64,000 nucleotides of DNA from Streptomyces sp. S3(2020) (lineage in GTDB: Bacteria; Actinomycetota; Actinomycetes; Streptomycetales; Streptomycetaceae), in contig NZ_JABERD010000004.1 in assembly GCF_013044505.1 (NCBI RefSeq), forward strand, positions 62,001 to 126,000. Direction: 5' to 3'. The notes beneath the pieces were generated by a model. The model did not search any database. It was not told the origin of the DNA and saw only the letters and a list, made by a program, of their open reading frames with translations. This document shows positions 57,230 to 60,638 of this stretch, in pieces. The translations under genes and the position numbers were made by a program. Numbering within the stretch: the stretch's first letter is position 1; every line of letters begins with the position of its first letter.

Positions 57230-58441
57230 ATGGACGCCACACCCGCCCCGGACGAGTTCCGCGCCGAAGCCCGGCGCTGGCTGAAGAGCGTGGCCACAGC
57301 GCTGCCCGCACATCACGAGTGGGGCCACGGCGACGACTCGGTGGCCGTCTTCGAGAACTGGACGCGGAGCGAGGAACGCGCCCACACGGACCGGACACGC
57401 GCGTGGGAACGCACCCGCCACGACCACGGCTGGGGCGCTCTCGCCTGGTCGCCGGAGTACGGAGGCCGCGACCTCCCCGCGCACTACGAGCAGCTGTACC
57501 GGTCCGAGGAGTCCGCCTTCGACGTGCCCCGGCGCACCGAGATCTTCCCGGTCACCCAGCAACTCGTCGCCCCCGCCGTCCGCATCTGGGGGACCGATGA
57601 ACAGAAACACCGCTGGCTGCGCCCCATGCTGCGCACCGACGAACTCGCCTGCCAGCTGTTCTCCGAGACGGAAGCGGGCTCCGACCTCGCCGCCGTCCGC
57701 ACCCGGGCCGTACGGGAAGGCGACGGCTGGATCCTGCGCGGCCACAAGATCTGGACGTCCGGAGCCCGGGTCGCCACCTGGGGCGTCGCCGTCTGCCGCA
57801 CCGACACCGAGGCCCCCCAGCACGCCGGCATCACGGTCTTCCTGGTCCGGATGGACGCGCCGGGCGTCACCGTACGGCCCATCCGGCAGATGACCGGCGG
57901 CAGCAGCTTCAACGAGGTCTACCTGGACGACGTGTTCGTCCCGGACACCGACCGGCTCGGACCCGTCGGCGAGGGCTGGCGGGTCACCCTGACCGTGCTC
58001 GCCGCGGAACGCCTCGACTCCGGCGGACTCGGCCTCGACAACGCCGACCGCGCCCTCGACCTCGCCCGGCACCTGCCCAGGCCCCTCACCGGCGGCGAAC
58101 AGCAGCAGGCGGCCGACCTCTACGTCCGCACCCTCGTCCAGCGGCTCACCGGACTACGAGTGGCATCGGCCCTGGCGGCCGGCCGCGAACCCGGCGCCGA
58201 GGCCTCGGTCGGCAAACTCCACGCCACCGCGACGATGCGCGCCACCACCGACCTCGTCCAGCAACTCCTCGGACCGCGCCTGGCCGCCGACACAGGGCGA
58301 TGGGGCACGTTCGCCTGGACCGAGCACCTCCTCGGCGCGCCCGGCTACCGCATCGCGGGCGGCAGCGACGAGATCCAGCGCAACATCCTCGCCGAGCGCG
58401 TACTGGGACTGCCCAAGGAGCCGAAGGGGGCCGGGCGTTGA
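57230..58441 (+). CDS. Acyl-CoA dehydrogenase
   Basis: This 403-aa ACAD is complete. It has WGALAWSPEYGGRDLPAHYE at the N-terminus, LACQLFSETEAGSDLAAVRT (FAD-binding middle domain), GHKIWTSGARVATWGVAVCR, and the C-terminal YRIAGGSDEIQRNILAERVL. This last block is the normal ACAD C-terminal motif, so it should be an active enzyme. It starts 10 bp after the thiolase gene and its stop overlaps the kinase start (TTGA). Confidence 0.93.
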   Translation: MDATPAPDEFRAEARRWLKSVATALPAHHEWGHGDDSVAVFENWTRSEERAHTDRTRAWERTRHDHGWGALAWSPEYGGRDLPAHYEQLYRSEESAFDVPRRTEIFPVTQQLVAPAVRIWGTDEQKHRWLRPMLRTDELACQLFSETEAGSDLAAVRTRAVREGDGWILRGHKIWTSGARVATWGVAVCRTDTEAPQHAGITVFLVRMDAPGVTVRPIRQMTGGSSFNEVYLDDVFVPDTDRLGPVGEGWRVTLTVLAAERLDSGGLGLDNADRALDLARHLPRPLTGGEQQQAADLYVRTLVQRLTGLRVASALAAGREPGAEASVGKLHATATMRATTDLVQQLLGPRLAADTGRWGTFAWTEHLLGAPGYRIAGGSDEIQRNILAERVLGLPKEPKGAGR

Positions 58442-59409
58442 GCACCACCACCGAGACGGACGAACTCGCACGACGGGTCAGGGGACGACTGGCCGAACGC
58501 CACCCCGGCGAGGCGCTGGGCGATCTGCGTACCCTGCCCGGTGGCCACTCCGGCCTCACCTACTCCATCGCGGCAGGACCGGATTCCTACGTCGTGAAAG
58601 CCGTACCCCCGGGCCAACGAGCCGTCGGCCGCGACGACGTGCTGCGCCAGGCCCGGATCCTGCGCACACTCGCCGGATCCCCGGTGCCCGTGCCGGCCGT
58701 CGTCGCCGTCGACGAAGCCGAACCCGCCTGGTTCGCCATGGAGTTCGTGGACGGCGAGGCGATCGAACCGGTCCTCGACGAGCACGGTCTCGATCCCGCG
58801 CTGTGCCGCAGACGCATGCTGGCCCTGGCCGACGTACTGCGGGATCTGCACCGCCAGACAGGCGGGGAGACCACTGAACCCCTGGGTCCGGCAGGGGAGT
58901 TGGAGCGATGGAGCCGCACCATGCGCGCGGTGCCGCCCGAACTCCGACCCGGAGCCGAGGACATCCTGGCAGCCCTGGCCGCGCACCTCCCCGACAGCAC
59001 ACCACCCGTCCTCACCCACGGAGACTTCCGCCTCGGCAACGCCCTGTTCCGCGGCGAGCGGCCGGCCGCCGTCGTGGACTGGGAGATCTGGGCCCACGGC
59101 GATCCGCGCATCGACCTCGCCTGGTTCCTTCTCTTCGCCGACCACCGCAACTTCCCCCGGCTCGGCCGGGCCGTCCCCGGCCTGCCCACCGAGGAAGAGC
59201 TGCTCACCGCCTACCTCGACGGCCGTCCCGAACCCCCCGCCTTCGACTGGTTCCGTGCCCTGGCCCGCACCAAAATGGCCGCGATCATGGGCCACAACCT
59301 GCGCCGGCACCGCGAGGGCAAGCACCACGACCCCGACCAGGAGCGGCTGCCGCCGACCATCGCGGCGATGATCCGCACCGCCCGCGACATCCTCGACCGA
59401 CGGTCCTGA
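58438..59409 (+). CDS. APH-family kinase, ACAD10/11- and LvaA-like
   Basis: This 323-aa kinase starts at TTG 58438, overlapping the preceding stop by 4 bp with AAGGGGG upstream. The Gly-rich loop LPGGHSGLT is at 33-41, the catalytic loop LTHGDFRLGN (HGD 194-196, Asn 201) is present, and the Mg-binding VDWE is at 213-216. This is the aminoglycoside-phosphotransferase fold seen in the N-terminal domain of mammalian ACAD10/11 and in LvaA, which phosphorylate 4-hydroxyacyl-CoA. It is followed after 14 bp by an ACAD of the matching type, so the same two-step chemistry is likely. Confidence 0.85.
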   Translation: MSTTTETDELARRVRGRLAERHPGEALGDLRTLPGGHSGLTYSIAAGPDSYVVKAVPPGQRAVGRDDVLRQARILRTLAGSPVPVPAVVAVDEAEPAWFAMEFVDGEAIEPVLDEHGLDPALCRRRMLALADVLRDLHRQTGGETTEPLGPAGELERWSRTMRAVPPELRPGAEDILAALAAHLPDSTPPVLTHGDFRLGNALFRGERPAAVVDWEIWAHGDPRIDLAWFLLFADHRNFPRLGRAVPGLPTEEELLTAYLDGRPEPPAFDWFRALARTKMAAIMGHNLRRHREGKHHDPDQERLPPTIAAMIRTARDILDRRS

Positions 59410-59423
59410 AGGAGCGCGCCGCC

Positions 59424-60638
59424 ATGGATTTCGGACTCTCCCCGAAGGCCGACGAACTCCGCTCACGCATGGCCGCGTTCATGGCGGAGTACGTCCTGCC
59501 CGCCGAACCCGTCCACGACCGGCAACTCGCCGAAGCCGACAACCCCCACGAACTCCCGCCGGTGATGCGTGAGTTGAAGGAGAAGGCGCGGGCCGAAGGG
59601 CTCTGGAACCTCTTCCTCGCCCACGGTGACCGGGGCGCCGGCCTCACCAACCTCGAATACGCGCCCCTCGCCGAACTGGCAGGACGATCGGTCATCGGGC
59701 CCGAGGTGTTCAACTGCTCCGCACCCGACACCGGGAACATGGAACTGCTCACCCTCTTCGGCACACCCGAACAGCAGGACCGCTGGCTGCGGCCCCTGCT
59801 CACCGCCGAGATCCGGTCCTGCTTCGCCATGACCGAGCCCGAGGTCGCCAGCTCCGACGCGCGCAACATCCGCACCCGGATCACCCGTGACGGCGACACC
59901 TACGTCGTCGACGGCCACAAGTGGTACACCTCCGGGATCCTCGACCCCGACTGCCGGCTGATCATCCTGATGGGGGTCACCGACCCGGACGCACCGACCT
60001 ACCGGCAGCAGAGCATGCTGCTGATCCCGCGCGACACCCCCGGCATCACCGTGCTGCGCGACCTGCCCATGTTCGGCTACACCGACCGCTGCGGCCACGG
60101 CGATGTCCTCTTCGAGGGCGTACGGGTACCGGTGTCGGCGATGCTGGGTGGCGAGGGAGAGGGATTCGCCCTGGCGCAGGGCCGGCTGGGGCCGGGACGG
60201 ATGCACTACGCCATGCGCGCGGTCGGATTCGCCGAGCGGGCACTGGAGTTGATGTGCCGCCGGACCCTGACCCGCACCGCCTTCGGGGGCAGGCTCGCCG
60301 AACAGGGTGTCGTACGGGAGTGGATCGCCCGCAGCCGCATCGAGATCGAGCAACTGCGCCTGCTCGTCCTCAAGTCGGCCTGGCTGATGGACACCTCGGG
60401 CAACGCGGCCGCCCGCACCGAGGTCGCCGCGATCAAGGTGGCCGCGCTGGAGGTCGCTCACCGGGTCGTCGACCGGGCCGTCCAGGCGCACGGCGCCGCC
60501 GGGGTCAGCGACGACACCGTACTGGCGCGGCTGTACGCCATCACCCGGGCGCTACGGATCGCGGACGGGCCCGACGAGGTGCATCTGCGAACGGTCGCAC
60601 GGCGTGAACTGGCCAGGTATCCCGAGGAGTCGGCGTGA
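59424..60638 (+). CDS. Acyl-CoA dehydrogenase, ACAD11/LvaC-like
   Basis: This 404-aa ACAD has the ACAD10/11-type middle domain CFAMTEPEVASSDARNIRTR, HKWYTSGILDPDCRLIILMG and QQSMLLIPRDTPGITVLRDL, and the C-terminal GFALAQGRLGPGRMHYAMRA and AIQAFGAAG-like VQAHGAAGVSDDTVLARLYA. These differ from the two other ACADs here. In known systems this enzyme removes the phosphate from 4-phosphoacyl-CoA to give an enoyl-CoA. It lies directly behind the kinase gene. Confidence 0.9.
   Translation: MDFGLSPKADELRSRMAAFMAEYVLPAEPVHDRQLAEADNPHELPPVMRELKEKARAEGLWNLFLAHGDRGAGLTNLEYAPLAELAGRSVIGPEVFNCSAPDTGNMELLTLFGTPEQQDRWLRPLLTAEIRSCFAMTEPEVASSDARNIRTRITRDGDTYVVDGHKWYTSGILDPDCRLIILMGVTDPDAPTYRQQSMLLIPRDTPGITVLRDLPMFGYTDRCGHGDVLFEGVRVPVSAMLGGEGEGFALAQGRLGPGRMHYAMRAVGFAERALELMCRRTLTRTAFGGRLAEQGVVREWIARSRIEIEQLRLLVLKSAWLMDTSGNAAARTEVAAIKVAALEVAHRVVDRAVQAHGAAGVSDDTVLARLYAITRALRIADGPDEVHLRTVARRELARYPEESA

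Follow-up and report, generated by a model that had tools for sequence, protein, structure and literature searches.

The stretch analysed here, 64,000 nucleotides from Streptomyces sp. S3(2020) (contig NZ_JABERD010000004.1, positions 62,001 to 126,000; referred to as the window, with positions counted from its first letter), carries a kinase gene (58438..59409, forward strand) followed by an acyl-CoA dehydrogenase (ACAD) gene (59424..60638, forward strand). The pair is real and conserved, and represents a specialised version of the ACAD10/11-LvaAC type. We consider phosphorylation of a gamma-hydroxyacyl-CoA by the kinase, followed by elimination of the phosphate by the ACAD, to be its probable function. 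Such an ATP-dependent dehydroxylation is suggested by the subfamily of the ACAD, its catalytic aspartate and pair of arginines, the adjacency of the two genes, and the CoA ligase, hydratases and thiolase encoded in the same cluster. According to excerpts of PMC11342911 and PMC12440821, it was only in 2024 to 2025 that mammalian ACAD10 and ACAD11 were recognised as enzymes of the 4-hydroxyacyl-CoA kinase/ACAD route, which in bacteria was assigned for levulinate. Among the open-access papers listed in literature searches, there was no published bacterial example resembling the pair in the window.

The acyl-CoA dehydrogenase and its phosphate pocket

The initial annotation had placed an ACAD of the ACAD11 type 14 bp downstream of the kinase, and this description holds. 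The protein of 404 aa begins at 59424, 14 bp past the kinase stop, contains FAMTEPEVASSDA and AQGRLGPGR, and belongs by sequence to the ACAD10/11-LvaC subfamily. Among solved structures, it is most similar to 4hr3 (E 4e-128) and the ACAD11 entries 8v3u, 8v3v and 2wbi (E 4e-124 to 3e-122), and the next different ACAD is FadE3 with an E-value of 1e-38. Because the best matches are 4hr3 and ACAD11 and the values then drop to 1e-38, which leaves the subfamily a margin of more than 80 orders of magnitude, the resemblance is not due to chance. The closest outside ACAD among the matches listed is that of Streptomyces fuscichromogenes with 95% identity.

The helix lining the phosphate pocket, QGRLGPGRMHYAMR (60177..60218, forward strand), was located in alignments of 84 and 100 rows. 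It retains Arg254, Arg259 and Arg265, and carries Tyr262 (60207-60209) at the position of His634 in ACAD11. The catalytic Asp381, the counterpart of ACAD11 Asp753, lies in ADGPDEVH (60564..60566, forward strand; 100-row alignment). For mouse ACAD11, an excerpt of PMC12440821 attributes phosphate contact and catalysis to Arg626, His634, Arg637 and Asp753, and describes changes at Arg626, Arg637 and His634 as the most disruptive to the ACAD activity.

Equivalents of Arg626, Arg631, Arg637 and Asp753 were present in 100 of 100 subfamily rows, although the near-total conservation of Asp753 is partly a matter of construction, since the search patterns include ADGPDEVH. These rows comprise 80 loci (the best 80 of at least 593 matches to peptide patterns, ADGPDEVH among them), four ACADs of the window's own genome, seven further cluster members, four ACADs of the KIN2 type (a second type of pair described below), one from genome G833, two from third pairs and two references. 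The outgroup, which consisted of five further ACADs from the same genome as the window, is not counted among the 100. At position 634, His was found in 89 rows and Tyr in 11. The 11 rows with Tyr form a single clade (0.995), as do ten of them in a second tree (100/99). When the Tyr motif was searched for as a DNA pattern, two of 396 genomes of the phylum matched, namely the own genome (G000) and G050. The window ACAD thus departs from the canonical ACAD11 phosphate pocket at His634.

The kinase

The kinase open reading frame (ORF) encodes 323 aa and matches Pfam APH with an E-value of 8e-33, and the HGD...N and VDWE motifs pointed out in the initial annotation are indeed present as HGDFRLGN and VVDWE. 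Its start, a predicted TTG, shares 4 bp with the end of the upstream ACADa gene, while the 14-bp gap to the downstream ACAD (59410..59423, forward strand) contains an AGGAG stretch resembling a ribosome-binding site and no ORF; the genes are presumably co-transcribed. In the alignment to ACAD11 (8v3v), the catalytic pair corresponds to Asp196 (59023-59025) and Asn201 (59038-59040), and Asp214-Trp-Glu represents the DWE motif. Together with the Pfam match and an AF2 model, this alignment identifies the gene product as an APH-fold kinase and a candidate hydroxyacyl-CoA kinase. The kinase residues of mouse ACAD11 named in an excerpt of PMC12440821 are Asp220, Asn225, Arg86 and Arg176, with Arg176 among those put beside CoA by modelling. 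An Arg beside the alphaC position is retained in the window kinase (Arg70); the ACAD11 chain index at this site is 83, which does not match the published Arg86 by count.

The top sequence matches of the kinase in the PDB were 3dxp, 9o56 and ACAD11, all at about 1e-17. In profile comparisons it scored 98.7 bits with ACAD11, 68.8 with Rv3168, 59.1 with the 25-hydroxysteroid kinase (25-HSK) and at most 35.3 with antibiotic kinases, so that ACAD11 ranks first among the kinases of known substrate and 25-HSK is not the closest. The window kinase stands outside the ACAD11-type kinase clade and groups neither with the ACAD11 kinase nor with 3dxp. When 76 kinases were placed in a tree, those of the window type (six) and of the KIN2 type (five) fell into a single clade (100/100), which a long branch separates from ACAD11, 3dxp and 9o56. 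The same clade was recovered (100/99; five and four of these kinases) in a tree of 32 rows to which Rv3168 (3ats) had been added. This second tree also rejected a grouping of the window kinases together with three actinobacterial ones of the canonical kind (p 5e-8).

The AF2 model of the kinase was built from 12 sequences, and the five models ranged from 63.7 to 86.5 in pLDDT, the best reaching 86.5. Its closest structure is 3dxp (Z 28.4, rmsd 2.9, 305 aligned residues), followed by Rv3168 (Z 24.3, rmsd 4.2, 307 aligned) and 25-HSK (9fsg_A; Z 23.9, rmsd 4.2, 308 aligned), which are tied. The kinase part of ACAD11 (8v3v_A) reached Z 19.1 with an rmsd of 2.8 over 219 aligned residues in VIA-align.

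Conservation of the gene cluster and comparison with known systems

The pair lies inside a rightward gene run that extends from 52786 past the right edge of the window. We use the term cluster for this run and its divergent neighbours, about 20 genes in total. Loci of this type were found in nine genomes spanning three family groups: the own genome, S. fuscichromogenes (L029), G669, G416, G469, G050, G893, G792 and G836. With the window as query, all nine carry the first enoyl-CoA hydratase (ECH1), the DUF35 protein, the thiolase, ACADa, the kinase, the ACAD11-like dehydrogenase, the short-chain dehydrogenases SDR3 and SDR4 (the latter labelled by eye), the TetR-type regulator, two small SnoaL-like genes, EthD and the acyl-CoA ligase; a metallo-beta-lactamase (MBL) fold hydrolase and ACADb were present in eight of the nine within the DNA examined. 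Kinase and ACAD adjoin each other, and position 634 is Tyr, in every one of the nine genomes. Two further ACADs with Tyr, those of L030 and G833, are located outside a window-type cluster. We found no pathway assigned to this conserved cluster, and the pair offers a route to its substrate.

With ACAD11 and ACAD10 of mouse and human, the window pair has in common the ACAD match (about 1e-123), the catalytic Asp, the Arg626/Arg637 pair and an APH-fold kinase as partner. In contrast, the two parts are fused in the mammalian proteins and encoded by two genes in the window, Tyr replaces His634, and the window kinase belongs to a separate clade, has Gln instead of the alphaC Glu and lacks the Arg176 segment. 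In Pseudomonas putida, too, the kinase (LvaA) and the ACAD (LvaC) are encoded separately, and their operon contains a CoA ligase, LvaE (excerpts of PMC12440821 and PMC11342911). Compared with it by published description, the window cluster is much larger and comprises two more ACADs, a thiolase and a DUF35 protein. The lva operon of P. putida presumably also includes the short-chain dehydrogenase LvaD, and LvaB, which we take to be a small ORF between the LvaA kinase and the LvaC ACAD, has no equivalent between the genes of the window pair. In the examined stretches of six Pseudomonas genomes, kinases were found and no lva operon was recognised.

That split pairs perform the kinase/ACAD chemistry is supported by the ability of a Burkholderia kinase and a Burkholderia ACAD each to replace a part of ACAD10, as reported in an excerpt of PMC11342911. 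The 25-hydroxysteroid kinase of Sterolibacterium denitrificans (9fsg, 9ft5) shares the kinase fold and the use of phosphate as the leaving group for hydroxyl removal; it differs in its free sterol substrate, in the lack of a lyase gene known nearby (excerpt of PMC8449060) and in its lower profile score (59 versus 99 bits).

Proposed function and alternative explanations

In the pathway that we propose, the CoA ligase of the cluster would supply the thioester of a hydroxy acid, and the kinase would phosphorylate its gamma (C4) hydroxyl group at the expense of ATP. Asp381 of the ACAD would then take the alpha proton, FAD would be used transiently, and phosphate would be expelled to yield a 2-enoyl-CoA. 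The hydratase encoded at 54936, the short-chain dehydrogenases and the pair of SCP2-type thiolase and DUF35 protein might subsequently cleave this product. The LvaA-LvaC- or ACAD10/11-like dehydroxylation assumed in the initial annotation is thus retained as regards the subfamily and residues of the ACAD, the adjacency and the cluster, from which the reaction is inferred, whereas the kinase outside the ACAD11-type clade and the Tyr in place of His634 set the window pair apart from those systems. The separate kinase clade and the Tyr suggest a substrate unlike 4-hydroxyvalerate; our guess is a bulky or cyclic gamma-hydroxy acid.

Several observations weigh against a hydroxyacyl-CoA dehydroxylation. 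Gln71 of the kinase (58648-58650) occupies the position of the alphaC Glu of ACAD11, as does Gln in 12 of 12 aligned kinases of the window and KIN2 types, and ACAD11 Arg176 falls into an alignment gap, the corresponding segment being absent. Since the kinase lacks both the Arg176 segment and the alphaC Glu, its CoA recognition must differ from that of ACAD11 or be absent. In addition, the fold comparison places Rv3168 and 25-HSK above ACAD11, and changes of His634 to Ala or Leu are among the most disruptive in ACAD11 (excerpt of PMC12440821), yet the window ACAD has Tyr at this site. Among the 80 related ACAD loci, such a kinase was found within 200 bp in 41 and farther away within the examined flanks in 18 (59 of 80 in total), but there was none in the examined flanks of the remaining 21, four of which end less than 5 kb from the ACAD.

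Some of these points would fit a kinase that, like 25-HSK, acts on a free steroid or terpenoid alcohol (secondary or tertiary, and not bound to CoA), with the ACAD acting later on another intermediate. The absence of the segment modelled beside CoA in ACAD11 agrees with this, as do the longer structural alignment to 25-HSK (Z 23.9 with 308 residues, versus Z 19.1 with 219 for ACAD11), its Foldseek ranks 3-5 for the kinase model and the best scores of several cluster genes against models and structures that we take to be of steroid enzymes. We nonetheless regard it as unlikely, given that the sequence profile favours ACAD11 (98.7 versus 59.1 bits), that an ACAD with the phosphate-pocket arginines adjoins the kinase in all nine genomes, and that the authors of the 25-HSK study knew of no lyase gene near it (excerpt of PMC8449060). 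It is even less probable that the pair is a plain LvaA-LvaC ortholog degrading levulinate, 4-hydroxyvalerate or simple gamma-lactones. The ACAD subfamily is the same, a CoA ligase and short-chain dehydrogenases are part of the cluster, and the MBL-fold hydrolase could open lactones; however, a more canonical pair is encoded on contig C124 of the same genome, the window kinases are kept apart from the canonical actinobacterial ones by the tree test described above (p 5e-8), and about 20 genes including two more ACADs and a KstD-like flavoprotein are more than would be expected for a C5 acid. An antibiotic phosphotransferase beside an ordinary acyl-CoA dehydrogenase is hardly credible: the APH fold and a score of 46 bits with the NCBIfam APH(3') model speak for it, but the cut-off of this model is 205 bits, antibiotic-kinase profiles reached at most 35.3 bits compared to 98.7 for ACAD11, and the kinase is conserved inside a catabolic gene cluster.

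Beyond the gamma-hydroxyacyl-CoA dehydroxylation itself, we tentatively put forward, at less than even chances, that in actinobacteria the cluster is dedicated to the breakdown of polycyclic or branched acids that carry a gamma-hydroxyl group and derive from steroids or terpenoids. It would employ a separate family of hydroxyacyl-CoA kinases and a Tyr-variant ACAD. Kinases and phosphate-eliminating ACADs would be exchangeable components of a wider toolkit, with at least four copies in the genome, that strips hydroxyl groups from bulky acyl-CoAs with ATP. The locus suggests that bacteria have expanded the number of both enzymes and combined them anew to handle other substrates. Since the pocket naturally has Tyr for His634 and the kinase lacks the Arg176 contact, specificity becomes testable by comparing natural variants.

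Further kinase/ACAD pairs

The four best matches to the ACAD in the own genome are the window protein itself (100%), one on C124 (60%), the KIN2 ACAD (C4b, 43%) and C1b (43%), and the remaining 35 matches show 25-37% identity. Each of the four has one of the top four kinase matches at most 1 kb away. The three other pairs (KIN2 at C4:19.6-22.9 kb, where C4 denotes the contig of the window; C1:123.3-125.6 kb; the third on C124) have gene neighbourhoods unlike that of the window, and their ACADs have the same Arg and Asp residues as the window ACAD and His at position 634. The C124 pair is more canonical, with its kinase in the clade of most actinobacterial kinases and the His at position 634; its neighbours are, by eye, a ligase, a short-chain dehydrogenase and a TetR gene.

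The KIN2 and C1b ACADs are sisters (100/99), whereas among the kinases KIN2 pairs with the window type, so the kinase and ACAD halves did not always remain partners. A clade of the window-clade and KIN2 ACADs without the C1 ACAD was rejected in the ACAD tree (p 8e-5), and a clade of the KIN2 and C1 kinases in the kinase tree (p 9e-8). A single clade of the window-clade, KIN2 and C1 ACADs was not rejected (p 0.105, or 0.288 with third pairs added). An exchange of partners among the window, KIN2 and C1 types is favoured, with no direction assigned.

Apart from these comparisons, G469 and G416 have a further pair a few kb from the window-type cluster (L139 15258-17600 and L140 14966-17200), in which the ACAD reads GPARMTHCMR, with Thr for His633 and His634 kept, and the kinase groups with the canonical actinobacterial ones. 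The region G000:C1:112001-132000 (L028) is a catabolic-looking cluster with its own kinase/ACAD10-11 pair (123301-125609) and, by eye, a liv-type transporter, a P450, a Rieske-type gene, CaiB and a thiolase.

The Baeyer-Villiger monooxygenase and the neighbouring island

The initial annotation had also linked the pair to a Baeyer-Villiger monooxygenase (BVMO; 4672-6342) elsewhere in the window. We rejected this link, since in the co-occurrence analysis the BVMO did not travel with the cluster: an ortholog was found in two of the nine cluster genomes (G000 and G669), both of which also have KIN2. Orthologs (at least 72%) were present in 7 of 293 genomes of the order, and KIN2-type kinases in 5 of 293, all five with a BVMO ortholog; G527 (74%) and G409 (72%) have the ortholog without a KIN2 match at E 1e-45. 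As the order-wide searches scored four to seven candidates per genome, these counts may be low, and they are not independent, the genomes being related. Among the other cluster genomes, G416 (a fragment), G469, G050 and G893 have only BVMO relatives of 34-49%, and G792, G836 and S. fuscichromogenes (G1005) have none at E 1e-60; G833, with its Tyr ACAD outside the cluster, has a relative of 58%. A BVMO feeding a kinase/ACAD pair may therefore apply to KIN2 rather than to the window pair. A lactone origin of the window cluster's substrate would be compatible with the cluster's own MBL metallo-hydrolase.

The BVMO is part of an island at about 5.4-75.3 kb of C4, of which window positions 1-13350 are the right part and which also carries the KIN2 pair (C4 19598 and 21471), P450s, and HsaC-, HsaD- and KstD-like genes; C4 has an HsaA-like gene as well, and all four of these scored below curated cut-offs. 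The KIN2 neighbourhood is conserved in L122-L125. From about C4 5.4 kb, the point at which the G587 contig starts, to about 75 kb, G587 has its genes in the same order; this agreement ends before the window cluster. G587 has no close match of the window kinase, its one match at E 1e-45 being of the KIN2 type. Since the shared order stops short and a close window kinase is missing in G587, the idea of this steroid meta-cleavage island as part of the window-cluster system was rejected, and the two are treated as separate systems. The best models for the BVMO (PtlE, 251 of 1100 bits) and for a P450 at 9259-10497 (pentalenolactone synthase, 259 of 700 bits) both belong to the pentalenolactone pathway, and both scores were far below cut-off.

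Organisation of the gene cluster

On the reverse strand, ABC-transporter genes of the branched-chain-amino-acid (liv) type (45366..50016; labelled by eye, possibly for uptake, and present in part of the cluster genomes only) are followed by a divergent KstD/fumarate-reductase-like flavoprotein and a zinc alcohol dehydrogenase with an uncertain start (50182..52732; several cluster genomes). All subsequent genes are on the forward strand. The rightward run begins with the short-chain dehydrogenase-like SDR1 (52786..53580; labelled by eye), ACADb (53699..54832; start at 53699 or 53846; best model IpdE2, 194 of 450 bits) and ECH1 (54936..55724; best NCBIfam model EchA19, 194 of 400 bits), both best models being below cut-off. 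Next come the DUF35 protein with a ChsH2-type zinc ribbon and OB fold (55709..56074), the SCP2-type thiolase (56071..57219) and ACADa, with Tcur3483 (6wy9, 6wy8) as the nearest solved structure (57230..58441). EchA19, IpdE2, ChsH2 and Tcur3483 are presumably all steroid enzymes. The content of the cluster points to a polycyclic or branched substrate.

Downstream of the pair are the short-chain dehydrogenases SDR2 (60635..61411) and SDR3 (61417..62178; nine of nine cluster genomes), the second enoyl-CoA hydratase/isomerase ECH2 (62163..63023), which has a strong match only in L029, G669, G416 and G469, the genomes nearest to the window, and the TetR-type regulator (63138..63767; labelled by eye, nine of nine cluster genomes). 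The start of a small gene named SnoaL1 (63870..64000) reaches the window edge, its 43-aa part having no Pfam match. Beyond the window (C4 126217-129705), the cluster continues with a weakly SnoaL-like gene (17.6 of 27 bits), EthD, the acyl-CoA ligase and the MBL-fold hydrolase.

Of all cluster genes, ECH1 is the best conserved: it shows 99% identity in L029 and G669, compared to mostly 78-95% for the other cluster genes found in these two. The SCP2-type thiolase keeps its nucleophilic Cys and has GEP instead of GHP, as do five other cluster members checked, and its chemistry may have changed, for instance to an aldolase-like cleavage.

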